Shown here: in pieces, positions 10,009 to 34,112 of the stretch
Layout of the letters: the number at the start of each line of letters is the position of its first letter
Numbering within the stretch: position 1 is the stretch's first letter
NCBI GenBank assembly: GCA_024403415.1
Contig: JAKSRY010000002.1
Location: 62,001 to 126,000, forward strand
DNA length: 64,000 bases
Direction of reading: 5' to 3'
Source: Lachnospiraceae bacterium
GTDB lineage: Bacteria; Bacillota; Clostridia; Lachnospirales; Lachnospiraceae
Program-made: the position numbers and the translations under genes
Notes under the pieces: generated by a model
The model's input: the letters and a program-made list of their open reading frames with translations, nothing else
Databases searched by the model: none
What the model was told of the DNA's origin: nothing

Positions 10009-10009
10009 A

Positions 10010-16445: not shown

Positions 16446-17087
16446 ATGCAAAGAATGATAATAGAAAGAGTTGTTTCTGATTTACTTGATTCTAATATGT
16501 ATTTGATATGCGAGAATCAAAGGACAATAATAGTTGATCCATGTATAATAGATAAGAAGATATTCAATGTTGATTATATTTTGTTAACGCATGAACATTA
16601 TGATCATATTAGTGGTGTGAATTATTGGAAAAGCAAGACCGGTGCAAAAGTTATTGCAAGTGAAATATGCGCTGAAAAATGTATTGATTCCAGAAAAAAT
16701 CTTTCAAGATATTTTGATTCCTTTTGCGATATACAGACATGGTTAGAGGGGTATGTTGCACCGCAAGTTAGTGATTACGAATGTGAAGTTGACTTAACAT
16801 TTAATAAAAATTGTAAAATAGAATGGGAAGGTCACTCTATTTGTATAAAGGAATGCCCAGGACATTCATTAGGCAGTTGCTTGATTTTTCTGGATGATAA
16901 GTTTGTTTTTTCTGGGGATTCTATTTTTGAAAACATGAAAACTGAGAGTGGATTTCCAGGTGGGAGTCGTAAGGCGTGGCGTGAAGTTGGATATCCGCTT
17001 GTGGAATCTTTAAGGGATGATTATATTGTTTATCCGGGGCATTTTAAGGAGTTTATATTTAAGGATAGATATAAGAATAATAAATAA
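16446..17087 (+). CDS. Metallo-beta-lactamase-fold hydrolase, candidate thioesterase of the ACP pathway
   Basis: A 213-residue glyoxalase-II-like MBL protein with the full metal-ligand set: HEHYDH (about residues 50-55), the His of CPGHSLGS, the Asp of SGDSIF and the His of YPGHF. Related enzymes hydrolyse thioesters, lactones or similar bonds. As the first gene of the ACP cluster it could release or edit a thioester-bound intermediate; this is inference from position. ATG 16446 sits only a few bases after AGG. The in-frame ATG 16455 is 12 bases from it, so the start is uncertain by three residues. Confidence 0.82.
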   Translation: MQRMIIERVVSDLLDSNMYLICENQRTIIVDPCIIDKKIFNVDYILLTHEHYDHISGVNYWKSKTGAKVIASEICAEKCIDSRKNLSRYFDSFCDIQTWLEGYVAPQVSDYECEVDLTFNKNCKIEWEGHSICIKECPGHSLGSCLIFLDDKFVFSGDSIFENMKTESGFPGGSRKAWREVGYPLVESLRDDYIVYPGHFKEFIFKDRYKNNK

Positions 17088-17111
17088 TGTGTGTTTGGAG
17101 TGGGAGAAAAG

Positions 17112-17327
17112 ATGTCAGATTGTGAAAAACTTAAAATAGTTGAGGAATTATTGGAACTCGAATCAGGAAGTATAAAAACAGATACTAAGCTGGTAGATAT
17201 TGAGGAATGGGACTCTTTGGCAGTTATTTCATTGTTGGCATATTTAGATACAGAGTATAATAAAAAAATTACTTCTAGTGAAGTAAAAAAACTTGTGTAT
17301 ATTAAAGATATAATGAATCTGATATAG
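17112..17327 (+). CDS. Acyl carrier protein 1
   Basis: A 71-residue ACP of helical type with the phosphopantetheine site EEWDSL (Ser35). GGGAG lies five to six bases before ATG 17112, which is preferred over an in-frame GTG at 17091. It is visibly related to the ACP at 22320: both begin with EKL, share an ELE-rich first helix and have DIEE just before the DS site. It would carry thioester intermediates for the condensing, reducing and dehydrating enzymes that follow. No phosphopantetheinyl transferase is in the window, so activation must come from elsewhere. Confidence 0.9.
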   Translation: MSDCEKLKIVEELLELESGSIKTDTKLVDIEEWDSLAVISLLAYLDTEYNKKITSSEVKKLVYIKDIMNLI

Positions 17328-17338
17328 GGGTACTTATT

Positions 17339-18955
17339 ATGGTTTGTCGCAGATGTGGCGCAGATTGGGAAAGAGAAAATTTAATAAAAAATAAATATGT
17401 TTGCAGGGAATGTGGTATGCACATGAGAATACCTGCTAAAGACAGAATTTCATTTGTCGTAGACAAAAACAGCTTTCAAGAAATGTTTGTCGACGTAAAA
17501 TTGCCTAACAAATTTATTGATTCTGAATATCAGGAAAAACTTGTGAAAGCAGAAAATGTATCTGGTATGGATGAGGCAGTTATTACTGGAACTGCAAAAG
17601 TTTTTGGGGAAAAGATAGCAATTGTGGTATGTGACTCTTCTTTTATGATGGGAAGTATGGGGTATGTTGTTGGTGAGAGAATAACATGTATGATTGATTA
17701 TGCCACGCAAAGCAATTTGCCAATATTTATATTTTGTTGTTCAGGTGGTGCCCGGATGCAAGAAGGATTACGTTCGTTGATGCAAATGGAGAAAACTGCT
17801 TCAGCGCTTGCAAGACATAGCGATAAATCGCTTTTTTGCTCAACAATATTAACTGATCCTACAACAGGAGGTGTTACTGCCAGTTTTGCCATGTTGGGGG
17901 ATGTTATTATGGCAGAACGGGATACGACAATAGGTTTTGCCGGAAAAAGAGTTATTAAACAAACTATTGGAAGAGAATTGCCGGCTTCTTTTCAGAGTGC
18001 AGAGTTCCAGCTCGAACATGGTATGATTGATGGTATTGTTGAAAGAAAAAGAATGCGAAAAATGATTCAGTTTCTAACGATAACCAACAGACAATGTCAG
18101 AGATACGATGGATTTGTTGATAGAAATAAATTACGATTTAATAGGTTATATAATCTACGTGAAAAGAAGTCAAATATATCTGCTTGGCAGAAAGTAAAGA
18201 TGAATAGAAAATATGACATATATCAGCCGTTGGACTTTATCAGAGATATCTTTGATGTATTTGTAGAACTAAAAGGCGATAGGTTATATGGAGATGATTC
18301 TTCAATTGCAGGTGGATTAGCGTTACTTTCTGGGCAACCTGTGACTGTTATTGCAACAAGACGAGGTAAAAATGCACAAGAAATAATTGCAAATAATTAT
18401 GGTATGCCTTCACCGGAAGGCTATAGAAAAGCACTTAGGCTTATGCGTCAAGCTGAAAAATATAATAGGCCTATTATTACATTTATTAACACTCCGGGTG
18501 CTTATCCAGGTGAGGAAGCAGAAGAACGAGGTCAAGGAGAAGCTATTGCGCGTAATTTGTTTGAAATGTCAAAACTGACAGTTCCTATTTTAGCTATAAT
18601 AGTAGGAGAAGCTGGCAGTGGTGGGGCGCTTGCTTTGGCAGTTGCCAATGAAGTGTGGATGTTGGAAAATGCGACATATTCGATATTGTCACCTGAGGGT
18701 TATGCTTCTATTGTATGGAAAGATGCATCAAGGGCAGAAGAAGCTGCAGAAAAGATGAATATTACCGCAGAGAGCTTAAAGAAAAATGAAGTGATAGACA
18801 AAATAATTAGGTGCGGAGACAATGAAGACACAGATAGGATGAAAGAGTGCTCTGCACATATCAAAAAAGAGATAGAAGAATTTCTGACGAGAATGAGTAA
18901 ATTGGATAGGGACACAATAAAAATTCTCAGAGAAGAGAGATTTAGAAAATATTAG
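17339..18955 (+). CDS. accDA: Fused acetyl-CoA carboxylase carboxyltransferase (AccD-AccA)
   Basis: A 538-residue fusion of both carboxyltransferase subunits, which make malonyl-CoA from acetyl-CoA and carboxybiotin. The N-terminal zinc ribbon has Cys3, Cys6, Cys22 and Cys25. The AccD part (to about residue 255) has CSGGARMQEG and DPTTGGVTASFAMLGD. The AccA part (about 270-538) has NTPGAYPGEEAEERGQGEA, GEAGSGGALA and LSPEGYASI. In most Firmicutes these are separate genes. No biotin carboxylase or biotin carrier is encoded nearby, so it must borrow housekeeping AccB and AccC. Its position implies dedicated malonyl supply for the two ketosynthases. Confidence 0.93.
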   Translation: MVCRRCGADWERENLIKNKYVCRECGMHMRIPAKDRISFVVDKNSFQEMFVDVKLPNKFIDSEYQEKLVKAENVSGMDEAVITGTAKVFGEKIAIVVCDSSFMMGSMGYVVGERITCMIDYATQSNLPIFIFCCSGGARMQEGLRSLMQMEKTASALARHSDKSLFCSTILTDPTTGGVTASFAMLGDVIMAERDTTIGFAGKRVIKQTIGRELPASFQSAEFQLEHGMIDGIVERKRMRKMIQFLTITNRQCQRYDGFVDRNKLRFNRLYNLREKKSNISAWQKVKMNRKYDIYQPLDFIRDIFDVFVELKGDRLYGDDSSIAGGLALLSGQPVTVIATRRGKNAQEIIANNYGMPSPEGYRKALRLMRQAEKYNRPIITFINTPGAYPGEEAEERGQGEAIARNLFEMSKLTVPILAIIVGEAGSGGALALAVANEVWMLENATYSILSPEGYASIVWKDASRAEEAAEKMNITAESLKKNEVIDKIIRCGDNEDTDRMKECSAHIKKEIEEFLTRMSKLDRDTIKILREERFRKY

Positions 18956-19026
18956 TTAATTCAGACTAAATGAATATAAGATGACTTGACCATTCATTGT
19001 TTAGAGTTAGGTGGTAGAAGGAATAT

Positions 19027-19668
19027 ATGATAAAACTAGTTATTTTTGGTGCCGGTGGGTTAGGAAAAGAAGTAGTTAATCTGATAAAAGCAATTAATAG
19101 TGTTGAAAATAAGTACGAATTATTAGGTTATGTCGTTGACACAAAATATTTTAATGGTAACCAGAAAGTTCATGGATACGACGTACTTGGAACAGAAAAA
19201 TGGATTATTGACCATGCTGATGCCGTTAAATGCGTATGTGCGGTTGGACGTCCTTTAGATCGGCGTAGCATAATGCAACGTTTGGAAAAAGATGGGGTGC
19301 AATTTGAAACACTTATTCATCCAGATTGTTTTATAGACGAAACTGCAGTTATAGGAGATGGGACAATAATACAGTCAAAGTGTTCTGTTTCGTGTGATGT
19401 GACCATAGGTAAGGGGGGCTTACTCAATGGCGATGTTATTATAGGGCATGACTGTACAATAGGTGAATATGTTACAATATACCCTAGAGGACAAATATCT
19501 GGAAAGGCAGTAATAGGAAACGGATGTTTGCTAGGGTCTATGACTTTTCTGAACGAAAAGGTTAAAGTTGGTGATGAAGCAGTGATAGCACCGGGGAGTA
19601 TAGTTTTGACTCGTGTTAAGGAAAAAACGCATGTTATGGGAAACCCCGCAAAGAGGATTGATATATAA
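19027..19668 (+). CDS. NeuD/PglD-family sugar N- or O-acyltransferase
   Basis: A 213-residue protein with an N-terminal Rossmann-like substrate domain (VIFGAGGLGKEVV) and a C-terminal left-handed beta-helix with the catalytic-histidine motif IGHDCTIGEY, ending GNPAKRIDI. Relatives acetylate sialic acids, aminosugars such as UDP-bacillosamine precursors, or related acceptors. Being inside an ACP cluster it may take an acyl-ACP rather than acetyl-CoA. GAAGGA six bases before ATG is a good ribosome site. Its stop codon touches the next ATG. Confidence 0.85.
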   Translation: MIKLVIFGAGGLGKEVVNLIKAINSVENKYELLGYVVDTKYFNGNQKVHGYDVLGTEKWIIDHADAVKCVCAVGRPLDRRSIMQRLEKDGVQFETLIHPDCFIDETAVIGDGTIIQSKCSVSCDVTIGKGGLLNGDVIIGHDCTIGEYVTIYPRGQISGKAVIGNGCLLGSMTFLNEKVKVGDEAVIAPGSIVLTRVKEKTHVMGNPAKRIDI

Positions 19669-20433
19669 ATGTATCCAGTGATTAATTTAGATAAAAAAAA
19701 CATATTAATATTCGGAGCATCCAAGGGAATAGGGCAGGCGTGTGCAAAAGTGTGTGACAGGTTAGATGCACAAGTAATATTATCGGCCAGGGATATACGA
19801 GGTTTGAATAATACAAAATCTATGCTTAATCGTAATGCACACATATATGATTATGACTTGACAAACACAGAAGGAATAGAGAGTCTGATTAGCCAAATTG
19901 TTACTGAATGTGGTAAACTAGATGGTATAATATATTGTTCAGGAGTTACAGACAATAGGCCGTTGGCTATGCAAAAACCGGAATTTGTTAACAATTTGTT
20001 TAAGGTCAATTTTATGTCATACATGGAGACGGTGCGATGCTTTGCAAAGAAAGCAAATCATAATGAGTGTTCCAGCGTAGTAGGAATTGCTTCGGTAGCA
20101 TCGGAACTTGGAACAAAAGCTCATGAAGCATATGCAGCAAGCAAAGGGGCTATGATAGCAGCAAGCAAAAGTATGGCATCAGAACTTCATACTAAAGGAA
20201 TTAGAGTGAACTGTGTGTCGCCTGGAACAACAAGAACCGAGATGATAGAAGAATATCTGAGTAATTGTGAAAATACGGGTTCTGACGTAGGAAATCGTCT
20301 GTTGGAACGGCAATATTTGGGAATGATCGAGCCGGAATATATTGGTTATGCAGTGGCTTTTCTGTTGAGCGACGCATCCAAGTTTGTGACTGGATTTAAT
20401 TTGCCAGTTGACGGAGGTCTGCTTTCGGTTTAA
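19669..20433 (+). CDS. FabG-like short-chain reductase 1
   Basis: A 254-residue classical SDR with GASKGIG for NAD(P)H binding, NFMS and SVASEL regions, the catalytic YAASK and the C-terminal PVDGG. It most likely reduces a 3-oxoacyl-ACP to the 3-hydroxyacyl-ACP. It is a tandem paralogue of the next gene: both share the unusual RLLERQYLG block before the C-terminal dinucleotide region. Two related reductases may handle different chain lengths or opposite stereochemistry. Confidence 0.88.
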   Translation: MYPVINLDKKNILIFGASKGIGQACAKVCDRLDAQVILSARDIRGLNNTKSMLNRNAHIYDYDLTNTEGIESLISQIVTECGKLDGIIYCSGVTDNRPLAMQKPEFVNNLFKVNFMSYMETVRCFAKKANHNECSSVVGIASVASELGTKAHEAYAASKGAMIAASKSMASELHTKGIRVNCVSPGTTRTEMIEEYLSNCENTGSDVGNRLLERQYLGMIEPEYIGYAVAFLLSDASKFVTGFNLPVDGGLLSV

Positions 20434-20450
20434 TTGTTAGGAGCAAGCAA

Positions 20451-21218
20451 GTGATAAATTTAATTGATTTTACAGGAAAGAACATAATAGTTACAGGTGC
20501 TTCTTCCGGTATAGGTAAAAGTATTTCAGTAAGCCTTAGCAAGTTGGGGGCTAATGTGGTTCTTATAGCAAGGCGTGAAGAAGAACTTAAAAGCGTCAAA
20601 AATTTGTTAGAAGATGGTAATCATATGATTATTCCATATGATCTTAAAAATCTGGATGGAATAAAAGATATGGTTGATGATGTCGTTTCAACAGTAGGTA
20701 AGTTAGACGGAATGTTCTATGCGGCTGGTATTGGAAATGCTCATCCGGTTAAATTATTGAGCAATGATATTTTAAAGGAATTATTTGAAGTAAACTATTA
20801 TCCTTTTATCGAATTGATACGATGTATATCTCGAAAAGGAAAATACAATAGTGGTGCAAGAATTGTAGGAGTATCTTCTATAGCGGCTAAATGTGGTGAT
20901 GCCGGACTGACAGGATATTCATCTACAAAAGCAGCTATGGAGGCTGCAATTCGAAGCATGTCAAGGGAACTTAGTTCAAAAGGCATTGTTATTAATTCGT
21001 TAGCGCCTGCTATGACGAATACAATAATGTATACCGATTATGTTGAGCGATATGGAGAAAATAGTAATAGTGAGAAGCGATTACTCGAACGGCAATATTT
21101 AGGAATTGCAGATGTGCAGGATATTGTGAATTGTGGTTTGTTTTTGTTAAGTGATATATCAAAATATATCGCAGGAGTTACATTTTATGCTGATGGTGGT
21201 TACACTTCTGTTCAGTAG
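20451..21218 (+). CDS. FabG-like short-chain reductase 2
   Basis: A 255-residue classical SDR with GASSGIG, the catalytic YSSTK and the C-terminal YADGG. Translation starts at GTG 20451 with AGGAG seven bases upstream. It is a diverged copy of the preceding SDR, sharing RLLERQYLG and overall layout. By context it is a second 3-oxoacyl-ACP reductase. Reduction of another carbonyl in the pathway, for example an aldehyde or alpha-hydroxyketone from the LuxC or transketolase steps, is an alternative. Confidence 0.88.
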   Translation: MINLIDFTGKNIIVTGASSGIGKSISVSLSKLGANVVLIARREEELKSVKNLLEDGNHMIIPYDLKNLDGIKDMVDDVVSTVGKLDGMFYAAGIGNAHPVKLLSNDILKELFEVNYYPFIELIRCISRKGKYNSGARIVGVSSIAAKCGDAGLTGYSSTKAAMEAAIRSMSRELSSKGIVINSLAPAMTNTIMYTDYVERYGENSNSEKRLLERQYLGIADVQDIVNCGLFLLSDISKYIAGVTFYADGGYTSVQ

Positions 21219-21232
21219 GGAGAAAAAAGGTT

Positions 21233-22303
21233 ATGGCATATGCAAAGTATAATAATATTTCAATAGAAGGGATTTCAGTATGCGTTTCAGACAAATGGAC
21301 TAGTCTGTATGATATTTCCGAACAGGATGAAAAAACCATTAGTAAGTTTATGAAACGAACAGGAGTCACTGGACGATATGATGCCGGTGTAAGACAAACA
21401 TCTGCAGATTTTTGTTATAGCGCGGCTAAAGAACTAATTGAGAAGAACAATATTCCTCTTAATAAAGTAGGCGTGTTGGTATTGGTTACGCAGACAGCAG
21501 ACTATAATACTCCTTCAACAGCTTGTGTTTTACAAATGCGACTCGGACTGGATACAAATTGTATAGCATTTGATGTGAATCTGGGATGTTCGGGGTATGT
21601 TAATGGGATAAATATAGTTTCTTCTCTACTAAATTCTGTGGATGCAGAATATGGATTGCTATTATGTGGTGATACAACAGCAAAAGAGAAAAGCCAGAAA
21701 TACCGAACGAGGTTGACTAATTCTGCGAGCATGTTGTTTGGGGATGCTGGCTCTGCAACATTATTAAGAAAGAAAACGGAAGCTGATAATATAAGCATTT
21801 TACTTAATACAGATGGAGAAGGATTTAAGGCCTTAATCACACCATATGGTGGTTGGAGAAATCCTGATGTGGATGATCCGTCGGAACTCGCCGATTACAT
21901 GGATGATATAGAAGTCTTTAACTTTGCAACGACTAAAGTTCCTGAACAGATATTCAATATTATGAAAATAAATGGAACGACAATAGATGACTATGACTGC
22001 TTGGCGCTACATCAAGCTAATTTATATATAATGAAACAAATACAGAAGAAAACAGGGTTTTCTTCTGAACAGATGTTGGTGTCTATTGATAAGTTTGGTA
22101 ATACATCATCGGCATCGATACCAACAGCGCTTGTGGCAAACTTTGGTGACGATAATTCTGATAGGGTAATTAGAATTATGGGTTCAGGGTTTGGTGTTGG
22201 TCTTTCGTGGGCAACGATTGATATGGCAGTGAATGTGAAAAATGTTTTACCTGTTATTCAAACATCCGAATATTTTGAGGATGGTTATAATAAAATTAAT
22301 TAG
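21233..22303 (+). CDS. 3-oxoacyl-ACP synthase III-like ketosynthase 1
   Basis: A 356-residue KASIII (FabH-like) thiolase-fold enzyme with the full catalytic triad: Cys119 in NLGCSG, His260 in LHQAN and Asn290 in FGNTSS. FabH condenses a primer acyl thioester with malonyl-ACP. It is longer than housekeeping FabH (about 320 residues), with an extra C-terminal tail ending in an acidic segment, a form common in secondary-metabolite clusters. It is the first of two such genes separated only by an ACP gene. The primer cannot be read from the sequence. Confidence 0.9.
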   Translation: MAYAKYNNISIEGISVCVSDKWTSLYDISEQDEKTISKFMKRTGVTGRYDAGVRQTSADFCYSAAKELIEKNNIPLNKVGVLVLVTQTADYNTPSTACVLQMRLGLDTNCIAFDVNLGCSGYVNGINIVSSLLNSVDAEYGLLLCGDTTAKEKSQKYRTRLTNSASMLFGDAGSATLLRKKTEADNISILLNTDGEGFKALITPYGGWRNPDVDDPSELADYMDDIEVFNFATTKVPEQIFNIMKINGTTIDDYDCLALHQANLYIMKQIQKKTGFSSEQMLVSIDKFGNTSSASIPTALVANFGDDNSDRVIRIMGSGFGVGLSWATIDMAVNVKNVLPVIQTSEYFEDGYNKIN

Positions 22304-22319
22304 TAAAGGAGATAATGAG

Positions 22320-22538
22320 ATGACAGAAAGAGAAAAATTAGCAATGTTAGAGGAAATGCTTGAATTGGAAGAGGGTGCTCTGAATGTGGATATGGAATTG
22401 GATGATATTGAGGAATATGATTCGATGTCAAAACTGTCCTTGATTGTTCTTATGGAAGATGAGTTTGGAGTAAAACTCGACGCAAATACAATTAGGGGAT
22501 TTAAGACAGTTGGAGATATTCTTAAATTGATGGTGTGA
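22320..22538 (+). CDS. Acyl carrier protein 2
   Basis: A 72-residue ACP with the phosphopantetheine serine in EEYDSM (Ser35). ATG 22320 follows a strong AAAGGAG; the longer frame starting at 22242 overlaps the ketosynthase and is not credible. It is related to ACP 1 at 17112. It lies between the two KASIII genes, so it may be the malonyl or growing-chain carrier for one of them. Met rather than Leu after the modified Ser is a small departure from the common DSL. Confidence 0.9.
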   Translation: MTEREKLAMLEEMLELEEGALNVDMELDDIEEYDSMSKLSLIVLMEDEFGVKLDANTIRGFKTVGDILKLMV

Positions 22539-22618: not shown

Positions 22619-23707
22619 ATGGGAAAATTTGTAAATACAGGGATAAGAATAGAGGCAATTGCGACAGTTGTACCAAACAATTACTATGGGCATGAAAAGA
22701 ACGTGCAAATGTTTGGAGAAGAAACAGTAGATAAATTTGAAAAAATAACTAACATTTTTGCAACTTATAAAGTATCAAAACATCAAACTGTTTCTGATTT
22801 GGGATATGTTGCAGCAGTTGAGATTATAAACAAATTAAAACTAAATAAACATGATATAGGAGTATTGGTATTTGCATCTCCTGCACCAGACTATATACAA
22901 CCACCTACAGCTTGTGTACTTCAATATAGATTAGGCTTACCGAATGATTGTGCAGCTCTTGATATTACTCATGGCTGTAGTTCGTTTCCATATGGGAGTC
23001 AAGTTGTCTATTCTATGATGGCCTCTTCTGATTGCAGATATGGATTATTAATTGTAGGAGATAGTAATTCTAAAAATGTTAATCAAAAAGATAATTCATA
23101 TATGTTATGTTCTGATGCGGCGTCAGCAATATTGTTCATTCGAGATAGTGATGCAGTTAATAAAACAATGTTAAAGACGGATGGTAGTAGATATAAGGAC
23201 ATCATTATACCTGGGCGAGGCATGAGGGACTTAAATCCTATCGACAGCGAGGTGGTTTGTTCTGATGGAGTTTCTCGGTCAAAGTACAATTGGTATATGA
23301 ATGGAATGAATGTGTTTGTTTTTGCTACCAGAGATGTTCCAAAAGCAGTTAAGGAATATCTAGAATGGACAGATACAGATTTTGAGAAGTATGATGCAAT
23401 AGCATTTCATCAGGCAAATGGCATAATAATAGACAGATTAGTTAAAACGCTGAAACTTAAGGAAGAAAAGGTGCCGAACGTAATACATGATTATGGTAAC
23501 ACGGGGGGGAATTCGTTGCTACTAGCCTTGTGTGAAAAATATGGAAATATAGAGCTAAACAAAACAATTGAAGTATTGGGTGTGGCGTTTGGCGTTGGTT
23601 TGTCATTAGGAGTTACTTCGTTTTCAATAAATATAGATAATATTTTCCCCATTATAAAAACTGATAATCAGTTTGACGATGGAATTATTGAGTTAGAAGA
23701 TTTATGA
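22619..23707 (+). CDS. 3-oxoacyl-ACP synthase III-like ketosynthase 2
   Basis: A 362-residue KASIII paralogue of the 21233 enzyme with its own intact triad: Cys120 in THGCSS, His264 in FHQAN and Asn294 in YGNTGG. The two share the TACVLQ-RLGL segment before the active site but differ in the cysteine loop (GCSG against GCSS) and in the primer-pocket region, implying different substrates. The ATG has no clear ribosome site (AGG about ten bases upstream). An 80-base gap separates it from ACP 2, the largest gap in this part of the cluster. Confidence 0.9.
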   Translation: MGKFVNTGIRIEAIATVVPNNYYGHEKNVQMFGEETVDKFEKITNIFATYKVSKHQTVSDLGYVAAVEIINKLKLNKHDIGVLVFASPAPDYIQPPTACVLQYRLGLPNDCAALDITHGCSSFPYGSQVVYSMMASSDCRYGLLIVGDSNSKNVNQKDNSYMLCSDAASAILFIRDSDAVNKTMLKTDGSRYKDIIIPGRGMRDLNPIDSEVVCSDGVSRSKYNWYMNGMNVFVFATRDVPKAVKEYLEWTDTDFEKYDAIAFHQANGIIIDRLVKTLKLKEEKVPNVIHDYGNTGGNSLLLALCEKYGNIELNKTIEVLGVAFGVGLSLGVTSFSINIDNIFPIIKTDNQFDDGIIELEDL

Positions 23708-25790: not shown

Positions 25791-26030
25791 ATGAATAACA
25801 AAGAAAAGTACAACAATGCATTTATTGTCAGTTTTGATGTGACTGAAGATCAACTGGCTGGACTTGAATATCAGGGAGTTCCTGCATGGGATTCAGTTGG
25901 CCATATGGGATTGATTAGCGAGATAGAGGATGCCTTTGATATTCAGTTTGAAACAGATGATATTGTAGACTTTAACAGCTATGAAAAAGGTATTGAATTA
26001 TTAAAAAAATATGATGTTACAGTTGAATAA
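25791..26030 (+). CDS. Acyl carrier protein 3
   Basis: A 79-residue ACP-like protein with the phosphopantetheine serine in PAWDSV (Ser35) after a longer, more hydrophobic first region than ACP 1 and 2. AGGAGG lies seven bases before the ATG. It is not close to the first two ACPs and sits between the isomerase and the transketolase, so it may serve a different step, such as accepting or presenting a C2 or hydroxyacyl unit. This assignment rests on position alone. Confidence 0.85.
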   Translation: MNNKEKYNNAFIVSFDVTEDQLAGLEYQGVPAWDSVGHMGLISEIEDAFDIQFETDDIVDFNSYEKGIELLKKYDVTVE

Positions 26031-26890: not shown

Positions 26891-27854
26891 AGTGACTCGG
26901 GCTAAAGCGAAACTGTGGTCTCGATTAGGGGCAAGGGCAACCTTTGGACAGGCTATATTAGAGCTGGCAAAGGAAAGAGATGATTTTTATGTTTTATCCG
27001 CTGATTTAGGGCAGTCATCAGGACTTAGTAGATTTAAGGAAGAATTTTCCGAACGTTTTATTAATGTTGGAATTGCAGAACAGAACTTGATTGGTGTTTC
27101 AGCTGGATTGGCTAAGGATGGAACAAATGTATTTGCAACCTCCTTTTCACCATTTGTAACCATGCGCGCTTGTGAGCAGGTTCGTATGAATATGGGTTAT
27201 ATGCAACTAAACATAAAGACAGTTGGTTTGGGAAGTGGTCTTATTATGTCACAACTCGGCAACTCTCATTACGGAATAGAAGATGGATCTATTATGAGAT
27301 CTATCCCAGGTATGACAGTTGTGAATCCTGCAGATGGAGCTGAAATATTCAAGACTGTAGAGGCATTGTGTGATTTTGAAGGACCAGTATATCTGAGGTT
27401 GACCGGAGGACCCAATCTTCCCATTGTATATAGTGAAGATTTTGATTTTCAAATTGGAAAATCAATAACGTTGAGAGTAGGTGCAAATGTTGCATTAATC
27501 GCAACAGGAACTATGGTATATTATGCTATGAAAACTGCAGATATATTGGCTGAAAAAGGAATATCAGCAACAGTCATTGATATGCATACTATTAAGCCAT
27601 TGGATAAAGAATGTTTGGAAGGATTAACAAATCATTCCTTAATTGTAACTATAGAAGAAGCTTCTGTTATTGGAGGACTTGGTAGTGCTGTGGCTGAATA
27701 TTATTCAGCAAAAGAGAATAAACCGCCTCAATTCATTTTTGGAATAGATGATTATTTTCCGCATGCAGGAAGTTATGAATACTTGTTGGAACAGTGTGGA
27801 CTGACAGCAGAACATATATCTGAGAAGATACTCAAATATTTTGATGAAGGATGA
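26883..27854 (+). CDS. Transketolase C-terminal subunit
   Basis: A 323-residue C-terminal half of the split transketolase, with the pyrimidine-binding domain (TFGQAILELA, NVGIAEQN with the catalytic Glu, GNSHYGIEDG) and the C-terminal domain from about residue 200. It pairs with the preceding subunit. All expected cofactor-interface residues visible by eye are present, so the enzyme should be active. In this setting possible acceptors are the aldehyde from LuxC or an acyl-ACP. Confidence 0.92.
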   Translation: MIEVTRAKAKLWSRLGARATFGQAILELAKERDDFYVLSADLGQSSGLSRFKEEFSERFINVGIAEQNLIGVSAGLAKDGTNVFATSFSPFVTMRACEQVRMNMGYMQLNIKTVGLGSGLIMSQLGNSHYGIEDGSIMRSIPGMTVVNPADGAEIFKTVEALCDFEGPVYLRLTGGPNLPIVYSEDFDFQIGKSITLRVGANVALIATGTMVYYAMKTADILAEKGISATVIDMHTIKPLDKECLEGLTNHSLIVTIEEASVIGGLGSAVAEYYSAKENKPPQFIFGIDDYFPHAGSYEYLLEQCGLTAEHISEKILKYFDEG

Positions 27855-27888: not shown

Positions 27889-29304
27889 TTGACTATGTGG
27901 GATTTAAGACAATATGGAAATAATACATTAGCGATAGATGATAGTGGCAAATCTATTTCATATTCTATGTTTGAAGAAGAATGTAATTTGTTAGCTAAAA
28001 TTATTGGTAGACGATGCGTTGTATTTATATTATGTGAAAATTCAATAGGTTCTATTATAGGGTATGTAGGATGCGTAAATAACAAAATTGTACCGGTATT
28101 ATTGAACGCCAATTTAGAGAAGACACTGTTAAATAGTCTTATTGACACATACAGACCAGAATATATATGGTTACCCAAATCTAAAGAAGATGACTTCATC
28201 ACATACGATGAGGTCTATTTTTCGTGGGGATATTCGCTTATAAGAACAACAGTATCAGAAGATTATTCAATTAATAGTGATCTGTGTTTATTACTCACAA
28301 CATCAGGTTCTACTGGGAGTCCTAAGTTTGTTCGTCAGAGTTATGACAATGTATTGTCAAATGCTAAAGCTATTGTTAGCTATTTGAATATTGATCAATC
28401 AGAAAGACCAATAACTACACTGCCAATGAATTATACATATGGATTATCAATTATTAATAGCCATATATTAACTGGTGCCACTTTGTTGATTACGGATAAG
28501 GGATTAATGCAGAAGGAGTTTTGGAAATTCTTTTCGGAACAGGGAGCCACATCATTTGGCGGTGTTCCATATACATATGAAATGTTAAAACGCTTAAAAT
28601 TTTTTAATATGGATTTGCCAAGTCTGAGATATATGACACAAGCAGGAGGGAAAATAACTCCTGAGTTGCACAAATTATTTGCTGAGTATGCAGCAGTTAC
28701 AGGTAAAAAATTTATTGTTATGTATGGACAATGCGAAGCTACTGCAAGAATGGGTTACTTGCCGGCAGAAATGTCAATAAAGAAATGCGGTTCTATGGGG
28801 ATAGCTATTCCAGGAGGAACATTTAAGGTTGTCAATACAGATGGTCAGATTATTGAAGAACCATATGTGACGGGTGAACTTGTCTATGAGGGAGATAATG
28901 TAACTTTAGGCTACGCTGAATGTATTGCTGATTTAGCTAAAGGTGACGAACGAAATAAAATTCTTCATACAGGAGATATGGCTCAGTTTGATGAAGATGG
29001 ATATTATTATATTGTTGGAAGAAAGAAGAGATTTCTGAAGATATATGGTAATAGGGTTAACTTGGATGAGATAGATAGACTTATAAAGGGACATTTTGAG
29101 GATGTTGAGGTTGCCTGTTCAGGAATAGATGATCACCTTTATATATTTATTACCAAAGAAGAGTTTGCTAACAATGTTAAGAATTATGTAGTGAGTACGA
29201 CAAAACTCAATCAGGCCGCATTTAAGGTTATAGTTATCGATGAGATACCGAAAAACGATTCTGGAAAAGTGTTATATAAGGAATTAAATAAATTTTTTAC
29301 TTAG
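27889..29304 (+). CDS. AMP-forming acyl ligase (acyl-CoA/ACP synthetase-like)
   Basis: A 471-residue ANL-superfamily adenylating enzyme with the P-loop TTSGSTGSPK, the YGQCEAT motif, HTGDMAQFDEDG, the hinge GRKKRFLKIYG and the C-terminal catalytic Lys region NDSGKVLYKEL. It activates a carboxylate as acyl-AMP and loads it on CoA or an ACP. It is most similar in feel to small-molecule and D-alanine-type ligases. The start could be TTG 27889, seven bases after AGG, or ATG 27895. It sits between transketolase and thioesterase, so it may prime one of the ACPs. Confidence 0.88.
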   Translation: MTMWDLRQYGNNTLAIDDSGKSISYSMFEEECNLLAKIIGRRCVVFILCENSIGSIIGYVGCVNNKIVPVLLNANLEKTLLNSLIDTYRPEYIWLPKSKEDDFITYDEVYFSWGYSLIRTTVSEDYSINSDLCLLLTTSGSTGSPKFVRQSYDNVLSNAKAIVSYLNIDQSERPITTLPMNYTYGLSIINSHILTGATLLITDKGLMQKEFWKFFSEQGATSFGGVPYTYEMLKRLKFFNMDLPSLRYMTQAGGKITPELHKLFAEYAAVTGKKFIVMYGQCEATARMGYLPAEMSIKKCGSMGIAIPGGTFKVVNTDGQIIEEPYVTGELVYEGDNVTLGYAECIADLAKGDERNKILHTGDMAQFDEDGYYYIVGRKKRFLKIYGNRVNLDEIDRLIKGHFEDVEVACSGIDDHLYIFITKEEFANNVKNYVVSTTKLNQAAFKVIVIDEIPKNDSGKVLYKELNKFFT

Positions 29305-29316: not shown

Positions 29317-29991
29317 ATGAAATTAATATGTTTTTCACATGCTGGTGGGAGTGCAGAATTCTTTTCAGAGTTAAGGAGATTGTTGATTCCTGCGGGCATA
29401 GAAGTGATTACTTCCGAATACGCAGGACATGGGAAAAAGATGGGAACTAAGGCATACAGACACTTTGATGAACTGGTATGTGATATGATTGATAATATAA
29501 TGGCAATAGTTGATGAAACAGAAGAGTATGCTCTTTTGGGATACAGTATGGGAAGTGTTGTATTATCAGAAGTGGTTCGAAACATGCATAGTAAATTGCC
29601 ATCAAAGATATTTATTGCTGCCCATGGTCCCAAGATTATTCATAATGTAGATTGGAATGAAGTAAGCGATGAATACTTAAGAGATAGGATAACAGATTTT
29701 GGAGGGATAGCTGATAAACTTAAAAATAATCAAGTGTATTGGAGAATGTATGGTCCAATATATAGAAATGATTTCAGAATGTTAGATGAAGTCACTTTTT
29801 TAAGGAAAGTTATTGCACATGATATTCCAGCGATTATTATGTACTCTCCCGAGGATGATTTATGCGAAAATATTGAAGATTGGAATTATTATTTCACGTA
29901 CAAGAACTGCTATTTTAAGTTTGATGGCGGTCATTTTTTTATAAATGATAAGTGGGAAATTGTTGCAAATATTATTAAAGAGAATATTTGA
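29317..29991 (+). CDS. Type II thioesterase (alpha/beta hydrolase)
   Basis: A 224-residue GrsT/SrfAD-like thioesterase with the N-terminal ICFSHAGGS, nucleophile elbow GYSMGS, acidic residue in SPEDD and the catalytic His in GGHFF. Such enzymes remove wrong acyl groups from carrier proteins in NRPS and PKS systems. Its presence supports carrier-bound chemistry that needs editing, or it may release the product. It begins 12 bases after the ligase. Confidence 0.9.
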   Translation: MKLICFSHAGGSAEFFSELRRLLIPAGIEVITSEYAGHGKKMGTKAYRHFDELVCDMIDNIMAIVDETEEYALLGYSMGSVVLSEVVRNMHSKLPSKIFIAAHGPKIIHNVDWNEVSDEYLRDRITDFGGIADKLKNNQVYWRMYGPIYRNDFRMLDEVTFLRKVIAHDIPAIIMYSPEDDLCENIEDWNYYFTYKNCYFKFDGGHFFINDKWEIVANIIKENI

Positions 29992-30002
29992 AGGTGAAGA
30001 AA

Positions 30003-32321
30003 GTGAACTTTGATGATTTACTAAAAAATGCACCATATTCATTGACAAAAGAGCAAAAAGCGAAAATGCTCACTGAGCGTTTGATTGAACTTACGGAATA
30101 TCATAAAGGTCGATGTCCTGAGTATCAAAGAATGCTTATGGGGATGTCATATAATAAGTCGAAGGTAAGTTCTTATAAGGATTTGCCTTTTTTACCTGTC
30201 AGATTGTTCAAAGATTTATCTTTAAAAAGTGTTGATGATGATGGTGTGGTTAAAACCATGACTTCATCAGGAACTTCTGGGCAATCAGTTTCAAAGATAT
30301 ATCTTGATAAAGCGACTTCGGCAAATCAGCAGAAGACTATGGTTAAGATTGTCAACGAATTTACAGGTACAAGTCGGATGCCCATGATAATAGTTGACTG
30401 CCCGTCTGTTGTAAAAGATAGGAGAATGTTTTCCGCAAGAGGCGCAGGTATACTTGGGTTCTCTATTTTTGGATCGAAGAAAGTATATGCGCTCAATGAC
30501 GATATGCAGCTTGATGTGGCCGGGCTTAAAGAATTTCTTGATAAATATAAGGGTGAGAAAATTTTACTTTTTGGCTTTACCTTTATGGTTTGGCAGTATT
30601 TTTATAAGGAACTTGTTAGACTGAAGGCAGAAGGGATAGAGTTTGACCTTTCAAATGGAATTCTCATTCATGGTGGGGGCTGGAAGAAACTGATTAGTGA
30701 AGCTGTCAGCCCTTCAGAGTTTCATGATAGATTAAAAACGGTTTGCGGTTTAGATAGAATACATGATTACTACGGTATGGTTGAGCAGACAGGTTGCATA
30801 TATATGCAATGTGAGTGTGGACATCTTCATGCAAGTATTTTTTCTGATGTAATTGCAAGAAATCCTAAAGATTTTAGTGAATGTGCGTACGGAGAAAAAG
30901 GTATTCTTCAGGTTGTTTCAACAATTCCTGAATCATATCCGGGGCATTCACTTCTTACAGAGGATGAAGGAATTATATTAGGCGAAGATGATTGTCCTTG
31001 TGGAAGAAAAGGAAAGTATTTTAGTATTTTGGGAAGAATAAAAAATGCTGAAATAAGAGGATGCAGTGATACTTTTGCAGCCAATATCGATATGCTAAAT
31101 AAAAAACAGGAAGATGACAGCGATGAGTCTGCGATATTGAACAAGATAACATTCCTTATTGGAAATAAGGATATCGTACTCAATATGTGTGATGTTGCAA
31201 CAAAACAGCCTTTTGACGAAGAAGTTGTTGCTTTTTTAAATGATATATCCAAAGAACTCATGCGGGATAAAGATGCAAAATCATTCCCCGATATTGTTAC
31301 ATTGGGATTTTGGCTAAGAAAGGCATCAATCAGTAGTCTTAAGGAAAGGTTTTGCGCAAATGACGCATTTAGAGTTGGGCGAGGCGTTGCATTCCATATT
31401 GCACCTTCCAATGTACCGGTGAATTATGCATATTCACTTTTTACGGGTTTAATCTGTGGTAATGCTAATATCACAAGAGTTCCAACTAAGGATTTTCCAC
31501 AAATAGGTATAATAAATAGAGCTATTAATAAAGTGTTACAAGAACATCCTAAGATGAAAAACTATATATGCCTTGTTAGGTATGATAGAAATAAAGCTGT
31601 TAACGATTACCTTTCGGATATCTGTGATACCAGAATAATCTGGGGAGGGGACAAGACAATTGAAGAAATTAGAAAATCGCCTATTTCCGCCAGGTCAACA
31701 GATATTACATTTGCAGATAGATATTCACTTGCAGTTATAGATTCAGAAGAGTACCTTGCAGTTGCGGATAAGGAAAGGTTTGCTGTAGATTTTTATAATG
31801 ATACATATCTATCAGATCAGAATGCCTGTACAAGCCCGCGTGTGATAGTTTGGATGGGGTCTAATATTAATAGGGCTAAAGAGGAATTTTGGACTAATCT
31901 TAAGAATTTAGTTGATGAGAAGTATGAGCTGCAGGCAGTTCAGGCTGTAGACAAGTTGACAAATGCTTATGAAGCATATGCTTCGGGGATTTCCAAACTG
32001 ACTAAGGTAAGTGATGATAATAATGCAATTGTCAGACTGAGTACTGATTTGTTGCAAAATGATTTGATGGATTACAGATGTCACTCAGGATTCTTCTATG
32101 AGTATGATTGTACGGATATTCTTGAAGTAAGAGACTTTTGTGATAATGTTCATTGCCAGACGGTTGGAGTAGTAGGAGATACATCTATTGTTGAATCGCT
32201 TCTTAAAAGTGGAATTAAAGGAATAGACAGAGTTGTTAAAATCGGACACACTATGGATTTTGATTTGATTTGGGATGGTTATAATTTAGTTGAAAGATTA
32301 ACAAGAACAATCGGAATGTGA
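30003..32321 (+). CDS. LuxE-LuxC fusion: acyl-protein synthetase and acyl-CoA/ACP reductase
   Basis: About 772 residues joining two parts of the fatty-acid reductase complex. The N-terminal LuxE/PaaK-like domain (about 1-360) has SSGTSGQS, LLFGFTFMVWQ and HGGGWKK, and activates or transfers acyl groups. The C-terminal LuxC domain (about 400-770) has GRGVAFHIAPSNVPVN and catalytic Cys609 in DQNACTSPR, and reduces an acyl thioester or ester to an aldehyde with NADPH. GTG 30003, eight bases after AGG, is preferred over TTG 29988. The fusion of what are separate proteins in Vibrio would channel the acyl group. Expected product: an aldehyde. Confidence 0.9.
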   Translation: MNFDDLLKNAPYSLTKEQKAKMLTERLIELTEYHKGRCPEYQRMLMGMSYNKSKVSSYKDLPFLPVRLFKDLSLKSVDDDGVVKTMTSSGTSGQSVSKIYLDKATSANQQKTMVKIVNEFTGTSRMPMIIVDCPSVVKDRRMFSARGAGILGFSIFGSKKVYALNDDMQLDVAGLKEFLDKYKGEKILLFGFTFMVWQYFYKELVRLKAEGIEFDLSNGILIHGGGWKKLISEAVSPSEFHDRLKTVCGLDRIHDYYGMVEQTGCIYMQCECGHLHASIFSDVIARNPKDFSECAYGEKGILQVVSTIPESYPGHSLLTEDEGIILGEDDCPCGRKGKYFSILGRIKNAEIRGCSDTFAANIDMLNKKQEDDSDESAILNKITFLIGNKDIVLNMCDVATKQPFDEEVVAFLNDISKELMRDKDAKSFPDIVTLGFWLRKASISSLKERFCANDAFRVGRGVAFHIAPSNVPVNYAYSLFTGLICGNANITRVPTKDFPQIGIINRAINKVLQEHPKMKNYICLVRYDRNKAVNDYLSDICDTRIIWGGDKTIEEIRKSPISARSTDITFADRYSLAVIDSEEYLAVADKERFAVDFYNDTYLSDQNACTSPRVIVWMGSNINRAKEEFWTNLKNLVDEKYELQAVQAVDKLTNAYEAYASGISKLTKVSDDNNAIVRLSTDLLQNDLMDYRCHSGFFYEYDCTDILEVRDFCDNVHCQTVGVVGDTSIVESLLKSGIKGIDRVVKIGHTMDFDLIWDGYNLVERLTRTIGM

Positions 32322-32330
32322 GTTTATTAT

Positions 32331-34112
32331 ATGGTTAAAAACTTTTTTATCAATGTTAAAACCTTTTTTGTTATGTTTAAGCAGGTTATGACTGTTATTA
32401 ACAAAAAGCATAAAGCTCAATGTATTTTTTTGCTGTTTGGGGCATTTGTATGTGCATTTCTTGAAACACTTGGTGTTGGAGCAATAATTCCATTCGTGTT
32501 GGTTATGTTCTCGGCAGAAGAAATGATGACTAATCAATATGTTGTTATGATATCAAAAGTATTTCACATTGAGAACTATCATCAGCTTCTTATAGCAACA
32601 GCAATATTAATTATTGTAGTTTATGTTGTCAAGAATGTCGTTTTGCTGCTCTTTCAATATTTAAGAGCAAAAGTTCACAATAGTATAGAAAAAGAATTGA
32701 TGACACAGCAGTACAGAATGTTTATGTTAAGACCATATTCATATTATCTTCACGTAAATACAGCGGAAGTGATGCGTGGGTTGAACTCTGACATTACTCA
32801 GGTCATATGTGTTCTTGACAACTTTATTAATCTTACCTCTGAAGTTCTTACTATGATAATGATAGGTGCATTTATTGTGCTATTAGACCCAATCATTGCA
32901 GTGGGATTAATTGCAATAGCGATGCTGATCGCACTTGTTTTTATTGTTGGATTTAAGAAGAAATCTGCAGAGTTTGGGCAGAAGTGTAGAGAGATTTTTT
33001 TGCAAAGGTCTAAAGTAGTAATAGAATCTGTGAGTGGTTATAAAGAAATATCTATTCAGCAGAAAAAAGAATTCTTTATAGAAAAATATGATGACATTAA
33101 TGAAAAAGCGTGCAAATTAAATACAAAATATCTTTTTATTATGGGTATACCGAGTAGGGCAATTGAAACACTTTTTATAGCGGCACTTCTCATTCTTGCC
33201 TGTGTAAGAATTGAGGCTTTTAGCGATAATTCAGGATTTGTTTCACTTATCGGTGCTATGGGAGTGGCGGCAATTAGAATATTGCCATCTATTTCGAATA
33301 TTTCAGTAAATGTTAATGGATTGATAAGTGGAAGAGTAGGACTTGAGGCGGCATTTAATAATGTTGAACAGGTTAAGGCCGATGAAAAAATATATACTGC
33401 GAAAGTTAAAGAATTGCAGAGTAAGAAAGCAAGAAAGTACTTTTCTGATAAGATAGAATTAACAAATGTAACATTCCGATATGATAAGACAGACGTTGAT
33501 ATTCTTAAAGATGTTTCATTAACTATTAATAAGAATGAGTCCGTTGGATTTATTGGGGAATCCGGAGCAGGAAAGTCAACATTACTTGACGTTATGTTGG
33601 GGTTGCTGAAACCACAGGTAGGTGCAGTGACTATGGATGGCGTTAGTATTGAAGAAATTCCTTTTGATTGGGCAGATAATGTTGGATATGTTCCTCAAAC
33701 CGTCTTTTTATTAGACGACACAATAAGGAATAATATTGCCTTTGGTGTAAAAGAAGAGGATATCGATGATGATAAGATTTGGGAATGCCTAAAAGAAGCG
33801 CAGTTAGAGGCTTTTGTTCGTAATTTACCGGATGGATTAGACACAGAACTTGGAGAGCGAGGAATCAGATTTTCGGGTGGCCAAAGACAACGAGTTGCTA
33901 TTGCAAGAGCATTATATCATGACCCGGAGATTTTGGTTTTGGATGAAGCAACCTCAGCTCTTGATAATAATACTGAAAAAGATATTATGGCATCGATTGA
34001 CGGCCTTAGAGGAAAGTTAACGATTATTATTGTTGCACATAGACTGACTACGATTGAGAATTGCAATAAAGTATATGTGGTGAAAAATGGTAAAGTAACT
34101 GCAAATTTGTAA
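32331..34112 (+). CDS. ABC exporter half-transporter (PglK/MsbA-like)
   Basis: A 593-residue fusion of a six-span membrane domain and an ATPase: Walker A GESGAGKST, Q-loop YVPQT, signature FSGGQRQR, Walker B VLVLDEATSALD-type and the switch His in VAHRLTT. Full length for the family, functioning as a homodimer. PglK-type members flip lipid-linked oligosaccharides and MsbA-type members move lipids. As the last gene of the ACP block, nine bases after the LuxE-LuxC gene, it may export the product or a lipid-linked sugar carrying it. Confidence 0.92.
   Translation: MVKNFFINVKTFFVMFKQVMTVINKKHKAQCIFLLFGAFVCAFLETLGVGAIIPFVLVMFSAEEMMTNQYVVMISKVFHIENYHQLLIATAILIIVVYVVKNVVLLLFQYLRAKVHNSIEKELMTQQYRMFMLRPYSYYLHVNTAEVMRGLNSDITQVICVLDNFINLTSEVLTMIMIGAFIVLLDPIIAVGLIAIAMLIALVFIVGFKKKSAEFGQKCREIFLQRSKVVIESVSGYKEISIQQKKEFFIEKYDDINEKACKLNTKYLFIMGIPSRAIETLFIAALLILACVRIEAFSDNSGFVSLIGAMGVAAIRILPSISNISVNVNGLISGRVGLEAAFNNVEQVKADEKIYTAKVKELQSKKARKYFSDKIELTNVTFRYDKTDVDILKDVSLTINKNESVGFIGESGAGKSTLLDVMLGLLKPQVGAVTMDGVSIEEIPFDWADNVGYVPQTVFLLDDTIRNNIAFGVKEEDIDDDKIWECLKEAQLEAFVRNLPDGLDTELGERGIRFSGGQRQRVAIARALYHDPEILVLDEATSALDNNTEKDIMASIDGLRGKLTIIIVAHRLTTIENCNKVYVVKNGKVTANL

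Follow-up and report, generated by a model that had tools for sequence, protein, structure and literature searches.

The 18 genes at 16446-34112 of the window (the whole 64,000-nucleotide stretch of Lachnospiraceae DNA that was analysed) are a real, conserved gene set of a cell-surface sugar locus. We consider it evenly balanced whether they specify a pathway to a surface-glycan building block, possibly for a flagellin glycan, in which two modules cooperate: module A, the acyl-chain genes, and module B, comprising a carrier protein (ACP3), a split transketolase (TK), an acyl ligase and LuxE-LuxC.

Gene content and conservation

As originally predicted, 18 co-directional genes with minimal gaps occupy the interval: all 18 ORFs were found on the + strand, with intergenic gaps of at most 80 bases (Table 1). 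Pfam and NCBIfam matches bear out the families that had been named (MBL, AccDA, NeuD, the SDRs, the dehydratase, FucI-like, split TK, ligase, thioesterase, LuxE-LuxC and ABC). The two KASIII-type ketosynthases (KS) have the intact triads read from them earlier, the Cys, His and Asn residues aligning with those of solved 3-oxoacyl-ACP synthases. Two of the three ACPs are recognised by Pfam; ACP3, which has no family match in Pfam at 1e-3 or in NCBIfam at 1e-10, is identified by its WDS site and by 80-85% identical counterparts in two other loci. The listed ORF of ACP2, starting at 22242, is probably extended at the N-terminus; judged by its 78-aa counterpart, the true start would lie at about 22317.

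Table 1. Genes of the block and the DegT gene beyond it (positions in the window)
Gene product	Position	Strand	Evidence
MBL-fold hydrolase, possible ACP thioesterase	16446..17087	+	Pfam Lactamase_B 7e-17; 46% counterpart in B. proteoclasticus P6B7
ACP1	17091..17327	+	Pfam PP-binding 1.5e-4; WDSL site
AccD-AccA fusion, acetyl-CoA carboxylase carboxyltransferase (malonyl supply)	17339..18955	+	Pfam ACCA 2e-104
NeuD/PglD-type hexapeptide acyltransferase	19027..19668	+	NCBIfam NeuD TIGR03570 174.8 bits, cut-off 160.8
SDR1, ketoreductase-like	19669..20433	+	Pfam adh_short_C2 1e-48
SDR2, ketoreductase-like	20451..21218	+	Pfam adh_short_C2 7.5e-42
KS1, KASIII-type	21233..22303	+	Cys-His-Asn present
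ACP2	22242..22538 as listed	+	Pfam PP-binding 2.3e-6; 67% to 78-aa ACP in P6B7
KS2, KASIII-type	22619..23707	+	Cys-His-Asn present
FabZ-like (FabA/Z-like) hot-dog dehydratase (DH)	23764..24231	+	His and Glu align
FucI-type aldose-ketose isomerase	24249..25769	+	Pfam Fucose_iso_C 4e-21
ACP3, carrier protein of LuxE/TK core	25791..26030	+	WDSVGHM site; 54% in Rhizobium, 85% in P6B7
Split TK, N-terminal ThDP-binding chain (TKN)	26048..26890	+	Pfam Transketolase_N 1.8e-29; C. hydrogenoformans split TK 1.5e-55
Split TK, C-terminal chain (TKC)	26883..27854	+	Transket_pyr + Transketolase_C; E. coli H461, D469, R520 equivalents = G, L, G
AMP-forming acyl ligase, presumed ACP3 loader	27889..29304	+	Pfam AMP-binding 3.7e-41
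Type II thioesterase	29317..29991	+	Pfam Thioesterase 1.9e-19
LuxE-LuxC fusion, acyl-protein synthetase + acyl reductase, one ORF	29988..32321	+	Pfam LuxE 7e-54, LuxC 2.7e-26
ABC transporter, PglK/MsbA-like (flippase-like)	32331..34112	+	NCBIfam PglK 301.8 bits, under cut-off 1000
DegT aminotransferase, beyond the predicted interval	35297..36412	+	55-60% identical homologue in 8/104 other LuxE loci

Joint presence of these families in other genomes, proposed beforehand as a check, was found. Butyrivibrio proteoclasticus P6B7 has almost all of the block, with 34-85% identity between the shared proteins and the gene order KS-ACP-KS-DH-FucI-ACP3-TK common to both; in the part matching AccD-AccA, P6B7 has an MmdA-type carboxyltransferase and FabD. 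The part DH-FucI-ACP-TK-TK-ligase-LuxE-LuxC recurs in a rumen Clostridiales genome, the block is conserved in part in RGIG8162, and two Rhizobium plasmid records carry TKN-TKC-NeuD-ACP3-ligase-LuxE-LuxC-SDR, so that ACP3, ligase, LuxE and LuxC are linked to TK in another phylum as well. Conservation across genomes rules out a chance neighbourhood of the block genes.

For locus counts, the best 80 of 516 LuxE relatives were sampled, and the sample therefore leans to close relatives. Among 110 loci, four (L196-L199) were picked by TK and not by LuxE; 106 have any LuxE match and 105 a match over at least 30% of its length (the LuxE loci). Repeats of loci already in the set (L107, L122, L141, L160, L161 and L174) were left out of the counts, as was L115, whose TKC is 324/325 identical to that of L057 on another contig. 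The maps covered the block proteins only. A core of ACP, AMP ligase, LuxE and LuxC is widespread, and 35 of the 105 LuxE loci hold a total of 36 split-TK pairs within 6 kb of LuxE. Of 397 genomes, 28 match LuxE strongly, and this group contains ten of the 11 genomes that have a close TKC homologue (Fisher p = 6e-12, a rough value, as is the hypergeometric one below, the genomes and loci being related by descent). These 28 were picked by hand with E no higher than 1e-92 (a limit of 1e-20 gives 48), and the 397 genomes were taken as common to both searches. An SDR lies no more than 1.2 kb from the TK pair in 26/36 cases and FucI in 3/36, the two together in none of the 36, which gives a weak indication of mutual exclusion (hypergeometric 0.017, related loci).

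In the window, ACP, AMP ligase, LuxE and LuxC are clustered with glycosyltransferases, as in surface-glycan cassettes. The locus enclosing the block, with glycosyltransferases, MBOATs and DegT around it (Pfam, window ORFs), had not figured in the original prediction. No flagellin or flagellar genes were seen among those window ORFs submitted to Pfam, which were part of the total. The dedicated malonyl supply, discrete KSs, MBL, type II thioesterase and ABC exporter, together with FabD and the carboxyltransferase of P6B7, would also suit a stand-alone, polyketide-like small molecule secreted by the ABC protein. We regard such a product as most improbable, since that protein resembles the PglK/MsbA flippases (scores under both NCBIfam cut-offs), ABC matches are confined to 10 of the 105 LuxE loci, and glycosyltransferases lie around the block in the window and close to it in P6B7 and RGIG8162.

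The LuxE-LuxC core and the transketolase channel

The Cys residues of LuxE (GCS) and LuxC (DQNAC) align with those of the Lux fatty acid reductase LuxC-LuxE (PDB 7xc6), and we take them to be the catalytic, acyl-accepting ones. A thioesterase precedes LuxE directly, as in the Lux system, presumably in a LuxD-like place. In contrast to that system, LuxE and LuxC are fused in the window and their companions are TK and glycan genes. The AMP ligase has oxalyl-CoA synthetase as its best PDB match.

The two-gene layout of the TK, a ThDP-binding chain followed by a chain with the Pyr and C-terminal domains, is that of a split transketolase. Canonical transketolases carry the motif RSFHR and the sulfofructose (SF) transketolase RAFDR, according to the cited part of PMC11659671. 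At this place the window TK reads R-S-F-G-G, with His and the second Arg both replaced by Gly. Absence of the phosphate-orienting RSFHR motif, together with Leu at the Asp469-equivalent, sets it apart from the canonical sugar-phosphate transketolases, and absence of RAFDR from the sulfo-TK SqwGH. The possibility raised beforehand that this TK is the only housekeeping copy can be dismissed: there are five TK-type places in the genome, the block copy included, one of them a split pair (C34) with canonical His, Asp and Arg.

These changes recur. In a residue table of 51 TKCs, which includes four near-duplicates, the His461 and Asp469 equivalents are lost in 40/40 TKCs within 5 kb of LuxE and the Arg520 equivalent in 38/40 (36 and 34, respectively, once the near-duplicates are removed). 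All three residues are kept in the C34 copy, E. coli TktA, human TKT and the proteins of C. hydrogenoformans, Collinsella, Enterococcus and Fusobacterium. The loss is not a mark of LuxE linkage alone: His and Asp are also missing from TKs of glycan loci whose fetched stretch shows no LuxE (L090, L196, L197, L199 and, allowing for alignment wobble, L198) and from two Rhizobium TKs with FGGY sugar kinases as neighbours, both of which keep the Arg. Nor is the channel of the LuxE-near TKs uniform, because the R358-equivalent is changed in 13/40 and there is variation at the Ser and Phe positions.

In E. coli TK, the substitutions D469T, R520Q and S385Y shifted activity from phosphorylated towards non-phosphorylated, aliphatic and aromatic aldehydes, as stated in the cited part of PMC5073344. 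Since Asp469 and Arg520, the positions engineered there, are those lost here, the extension of an acid-derived aldehyde by the TK gains support; judged by sequence, loss of phosphate-site residues in the channel is as expected for such an acceptor. Alternatively, the split TK might produce a branched-chain sugar by joining its C2 unit to a keto sugar carried on a nucleotide, LuxE-LuxC serving another step. A Paenibacillus TK with the same His/Asp loss (L210) lies beside CDP-glucose dehydratase genes with no LuxE match, and in L153 an ORF that reads as a putative sugar-nucleotide dehydratase/epimerase is directly 5' of a TK pair 71-73% identical to that of the window. However, the linkage of TK to ACP3, ligase, LuxE and LuxC on the Rhizobium plasmids makes this reading very unlikely.

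The isomerase and the ketosynthase genes

The FucI-type protein matches Fucose_iso_C at 75.5 bits, above the gathering score of 29.3; it has no match in PDB, by sequence or by profile, and a scan of genome contigs gave no relatives. It is 42% identical to a copy in its own genome (C35) and 47% to two block-type copies, and on these identities is a paralogue of the common family copy. Across an alignment of 15 rows, 14 of them distinct, residues E304, D306, E313, H362 and H461 do not vary. Its only NCBIfam match at 1e-3 is the sulfoquinovose (SQ) isomerase SftI (NF048012), an assignment that we reject at 67.5 bits against a curated cut-off of 700.

FucI genes occur in three of the 105 LuxE loci. 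An obligatory partnership is ruled out by L153, whose TKC is 73% identical to that of the window with no FucI adjoining, and by the 33 of 36 LuxE-linked TK pairs that have none in the fetched stretch, although a few of these loci end close to TK. A rather unlikely role, in our judgement, is that of donor supplier, FucI converting a free aldose to a free ketose whose C2 ketol TK moves onto the LuxC aldehyde. There is a precedent in Lachnospiraceae, where the isomerase SqvD yields unphosphorylated SF, from which the split TK SqwGH removes the C2 unit; this sulfoquinovose pathway likewise joins an aldose-ketose isomerase to a split TK acting on an unphosphorylated ketose, but is catabolic, keeps the second Arg (RAFDR) and, as described in the cited part of the report, includes no ACP, KS or LuxE/C (PMC11659671). 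The SQ isomerase match of FucI, far under its cut-off as it is, speaks for this role, and the combined loss of His and Arg from the TK would fit an unphosphorylated donor. Against this, the 33 TK pairs without FucI mean that the donor is usually available otherwise.

KS genes were found in seven LuxE loci, and thus the acid that enters module B need not derive from module A. The two modules might be independent, A making an acyl group (for example 3-hydroxyacyl) that NeuD adds to an amino sugar and B a separate ketol-derived unit, with no single chimera. A NeuD-type acyltransferase together with DegT is usual for N-acyl amino sugars. Moreover, module B stands without a KS match in 98 of the 105 LuxE loci, or in what was fetched of them, including L125, which carries DH-FucI-ACP3-TK-ligase-LuxE-LuxC and has no KS match over the first 39 kb of a contig of 51 kb; two KS loci, L084 and L102, have LuxE/C while TK and FucI are both absent from the stretch fetched. 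The presence of TK in five of the seven KS loci and the gene order shared with P6B7 speak for cooperation instead, and we find independence somewhat doubtful.

The original prediction had an acyl chain reduced to an aldehyde, extended by C2 and isomerised to a chimera, and set homologous clusters lacking isomerase and TK against itself. Such clusters occur in part: among 83 loci that combine LuxE/C, ligase and ACP3, 48 have no TKC, and L084, L102, L125 without a KS match and L153 without FucI beside it also bear on this. The association of LuxE/LuxC with TK and the channel losses favour the aldehyde-extending part of the prediction; a single linear path through all 18 genes is a candidate reading.

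Proposed pathway and known systems

From the gene content, its conservation as a unit, the TK-LuxE association and the residue losses we infer a route in all its reactions and the order in which they run, as well as its substrates and product. Module A (AccDA, KS1, KS2, SDR1, SDR2, dehydratase, ACP1/2 and MBL) would use malonyl units to build a short acyl chain. In module B, the AMP ligase and ACP3 would present a carboxylic acid that LuxE-LuxC would convert to an aldehyde; the split TK would then add a two-carbon ketol, giving R-CHOH-CO-CH2OH. In most TK-bearing relatives the SDR beside TK would process the ketone, and in the window the FucI-type isomerase, standing in the SDR's place, would interconvert the ketol and an aldose form. 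Acylation by NeuD and amination by DegT probably follow, ahead of glycan assembly.

We also offer, as an unlikely but specific version, a phosphate-independent route from acyl-ACP to sugar, in which the malonyl-built chain becomes an aldehyde, TK makes a 1,3-dihydroxy-2-ketone, and FucI yields an aldose or DegT a 2-amino-1,3-diol. If true, a fatty-acid-type chain would be the source of a sugar or sphingoid-like head group, with no need for serine palmitoyltransferase or for a nucleotide-sugar precursor. Because the recurring TK is altered at positions engineered in E. coli TK, there is a concrete, testable reaction, aldehyde plus C2 ketol, and such TKs would be nature's equivalent of the transketolases evolved in the laboratory to take aliphatic aldehydes.

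The original prediction knew of no described system with this set. A TK-LuxE-LuxC-ligase-ACP-FabG part is, however, already in print for Dickeya zeae (PMC7575072, PMC4522980), where LuxC, LuxE, an acyl ligase, two transketolase genes, an ACP, SDRs, an acetyltransferase and an aminotransferase stand in a glycan setting. Compared by gene list only, the printed list differs in having no FucI isomerase, KASIII, AccDA, dehydratase or MBL, and to the extent of the isomerase and KS the claim stands. The Dickeya authors suggest a flagellin liposugar, with no TK chemistry given in the cited sections; in the passages cited here, a possible 'liposugar', with no reaction, is so far the explanation for LuxE/LuxC cassettes of glycan and flagellin islands. 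Flagellin glycosylation islands of Aeromonas group II (PMC7874193) and Enterobacteriaceae (PMC4875605) hold ACP, FabG, AMP ligase, LuxE and LuxC and share the acid-to-aldehyde core in a surface-glycan locus, but the main texts of these two reports do not mention a transketolase.

For the TK step, the azinomycin enzyme AziC5/C6 extends N-acetylglutamate semialdehyde by two carbons ahead of an aminotransferase, according to the cited part of PMC9570651. Azinomycin/vazabitide-type pathways, as described there, resemble the proposed route in taking a carboxylate to an aldehyde, with two-carbon extension by TK and an aminotransferase, but they use acyl-phosphate reduction in place of LuxE-LuxC and yield an amino acid product. 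A LysW-type Streptomyces plasmid has a split TK beside DegT, its TKC 40% identical to that of the window; unlike the window protein, it has retained the equivalents of H461 and R520, with Tyr at D469.

Gene content and conservation of the block

All 18 genes of the original prediction were found, on a single strand and with intergenic gaps of no more than 80 bases. Alignment, where it could be applied to catalytic residues, shows both KASIII triads intact, as had been proposed, and the dehydratase His and Glu and the LuxE and LuxC cysteines in place. The acyl carrier protein ACP3 matched neither a Pfam model (1e-3) nor an NCBIfam model (1e-10), but no other protein of the unit is as well conserved (80–85% in two further loci, 54% in Rhizobium). 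The block is housed in a large surface-polysaccharide locus, with glycosyltransferases, hexapeptide transferases, MBOATs and a DegT aminotransferase around it. An HTH regulator lies immediately ahead of the block and is 57% identical to a regulator upstream of another LuxE cassette. Elsewhere in the same glycan locus, an HMGL-like protein and an acetolactate-synthase-type ThDP enzyme, the latter with a homologue in locus L072, possibly form a second carbon–carbon bond-forming unit.

Coordinates of the features discussed (L, fetched loci)
Feature	Sequence	Position
HTH regulator	window	15508-16344
18-gene block	window	16446-34112
HMGL-like protein and ThDP enzyme	window	50280-53884
HMGL-like protein	window	50280-51905
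ThDP enzyme	window	51974-53884
NeuB-cluster gene	L090	1991-3058
Second split transketolase	L090	16939-18832
HTH regulator relative	L060 (genome G213)	13001-13843
ACP-LuxE-LuxC-ligase cassette and neighbouring genes	L073 (partly L063)	626-12308
Iron-type alcohol dehydrogenase	L083	13426-14547
Iron-type alcohol dehydrogenase	L084	12239-13366

The block is a conserved unit. In Butyrivibrio proteoclasticus P6B7, the gene order is MmdA-type carboxyltransferase, two NeuD-type transferases (32 and 51%), FabD, MBL (46%), SDR (42%), SDR (41%), KS1 (55%), ACP2 (67%), KS2 (36%), dehydratase (73%), FucI (48%), ACP3 (85%), the N- and C-terminal transketolase (TK) chains TKN (67%) and TKC (77%), ligase (66%), thioesterase (34%), LuxE (75%) and LuxC (54%), with DegT (60%) and an ABC transporter (37%) within 7 kb past LuxC. 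Neither an ACP1 counterpart nor a window-type AccDA was seen in P6B7. The rumen MAG RGIG8162 retains NeuD-dehydratase-FucI-ACP3-TKN-TKC-ligase-LuxE-LuxC; the initial 39 kb of the contig gave no KS match.

Distribution of the LuxE–LuxC cassette and its transketolase

LuxE/LuxC matched at 1e-20 in 48 of 397 family genomes, and scanning GTDB with aligned LuxE sequences gave at least 516 relatives, of which the best 80 were retained. After seven had been dropped beforehand, 105 loci with a LuxE/C match were compared, many of which end at contig or fetch limits.

Block families among the 105 LuxE/C loci
Family	Loci
AMP ligase	98
ACP3	83
SDR	63
Thioesterase	46
DegT	42
TKC	39
TKN	37
NeuD-type protein	30
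Dehydratase	20
MBL	7
KS1	6
KS2	3
AccDA	3
FucI	3

Where LuxE/C, ligase and ACP3 occur together (83 loci), both TK genes are present in 34 and TKC is absent in 48; TK accompanies KS in five of seven KS-bearing loci, L084 and L102 having neither TK nor FucI. In 35 loci, LuxE has a TK pair no more than 6 kb away (36 pairs in all). Close TKC homologues (1e-80) were found in 11 of 397 genomes, 10 of them among the 28 strong-LuxE genomes (p = 6e-12; p = 7e-11 with the window's genome left out). A phylum-wide draw gave close TKC (1e-80) in 4/398 genomes, and the fetched 17–20 kb from the three other than the window's contained no LuxE match. Some related loci are glycan loci of the nonulosonic-acid or flagellin type, carrying NeuB, CMP-sugar and epimerase genes (assigned via cluster representatives).

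Beyond the phylum, plasmids of Rhizobium anhuiense and R. beringeri, two of ten Rhizobium records among the best plasmid matches, carry TKN-TKC-NeuD-like-ACP-ligase-LuxE-LuxC-SDR, the former also with DegT and FabZ. For five more plasmid TKs (Collinsella, Fusobacterium, Enterococcus, Paenibacillus, Streptomyces; 38–43% identity), no LuxE match was present within 8–9 kb; the Streptomyces plasmid has a DegT-TK-TK-LysW arrangement, which we take to be of the vazabitide kind.

Eight loci (L060, L068, L118, L120, L133, L167, L169, L173) contain two LuxE–LuxC pairs, as if one pathway had two reductions. Their second LuxE is 48–58% identical to that of the window, and all except L060 and L133 have a TK gene in the same stretch.

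The original prediction knew of no described system with this set. Judging from the accessible text of the papers, this does not hold for the LuxE/LuxC-ACP-ligase-FabG cassette, which is in print for Aeromonas (PMC7874193) and Enterobacteriaceae (PMC4875605), or for its version with two transketolase genes in Dickeya zeae (PMC7575072, PMC4522980). It seems to stand for the FucI or KS extension, of which we found no description, nor any proposal of a TK reaction for such clusters, in the accessible full-text literature, with few subscription journals covered.

Active sites of the transketolase and the isomerase

An alignment to E. coli TktA shows R358, S385, E411, F434 and H473 retained in the TKC of the window, with Gly, Leu and Gly at H461, D469 and R520; the R. 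anhuiense and R. beringeri enzymes have Gly, Leu and Thr. For C. hydrogenoformans TK, RSFHR has been published as the phosphate-orienting motif (PMC11659671), and changes at S385, D469 and R520 of the E. coli enzyme shifted the accepted aldehydes from phosphorylated ones to aliphatic and aromatic ones (PMC5073344). Of the TKCs no more than 5 kb from LuxE (n = 40), none keeps the His or the Asp, two keep the Arg (that of L144 and the second of L153), all 40 the catalytic Glu and 27 the first Arg; without four near-duplicates (n = 36) these counts are 0, 0, 2, 36 and 24. His, Asp and Arg are all kept in the C34 copy, another split TK of the window's genome, and in the C. hydrogenoformans, human, E. 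coli, Collinsella, Enterococcus and Fusobacterium enzymes. His and Asp are also lost in several glycan-locus TKs with no LuxE in the fetched stretch, in the Paenibacillus TK and in two Rhizobium TKs beside FGGY kinases, which keep the Arg; such loss away from LuxE counts against a specific tie between the two. Among these glycan-locus TKs is a second split TK on the window's contig, about 18 kb beyond the window's end (L090, which also has a NeuB-cluster gene), without the channel His and Asp.

FucI matched at 1e-5 in 95 of 150 family genomes (89 at 1e-70 or better), mostly at 39–43% identity. In the window's genome and in G128, the two inspected, the gene for this common copy comes after one for an FGGY-type kinase, suggesting an ordinary kinase–isomerase pair. 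In an unrooted quick tree, whose branches are long, the three block-type FucI proteins stand apart from twelve common ones (eleven of them distinct) with support of 100. Among the 70 charged or Cys positions that do not vary in the common form, at least one block copy differs at 36, and all three keep the residue at 34, 17 of these being D, E or H (including E304, D306, E313, H362 and H461). All three block-type genes lie 282–354 bases ahead of the TK pair with ACP3 between, and occupy the place of the SDR, which is within 1.2 kb of the pair in 26 of 36 LuxE-linked cases. Since L153 has a close TK with no FucI beside it, and a 41% copy is all that its genome shows, FucI is an option; as a required partner of TK it is ruled out.

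A possible route from acid to ketol

The most economical reading is acid to aldehyde to ketol. The ligase and ACP3 would handle an acid, LuxE–LuxC would convert it to the aldehyde and TK would convert this to a ketol; SDR or FucI would follow, with amination and acylation last. Azinomycin offers a biochemical precedent, with TK acting on a carboxylate-derived semialdehyde before an aminotransferase (PMC9570651). A KS-made chain may feed the ligase-LuxE-LuxC-TK module. FucI may act on the TK product or, less probably, make the donor ketose, for which the sulfo-TK pathway is a precedent (PMC11659671).

Two observations concern cassettes in other settings. In L073, the neighbours of the cassette (MaoC, HpaB-type, acetyl-CoA hydrolase/transferase and Fe-ADH-cluster genes) are suggestive of 4-hydroxybutyrate chemistry. 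In L083 and L084, both lacking TK, an alcohol dehydrogenase of the iron type (by Pfam for L083) lies directly ahead of the LuxE–LuxC fusion, and alcohol is a possible other fate of the aldehyde in loci of this type.
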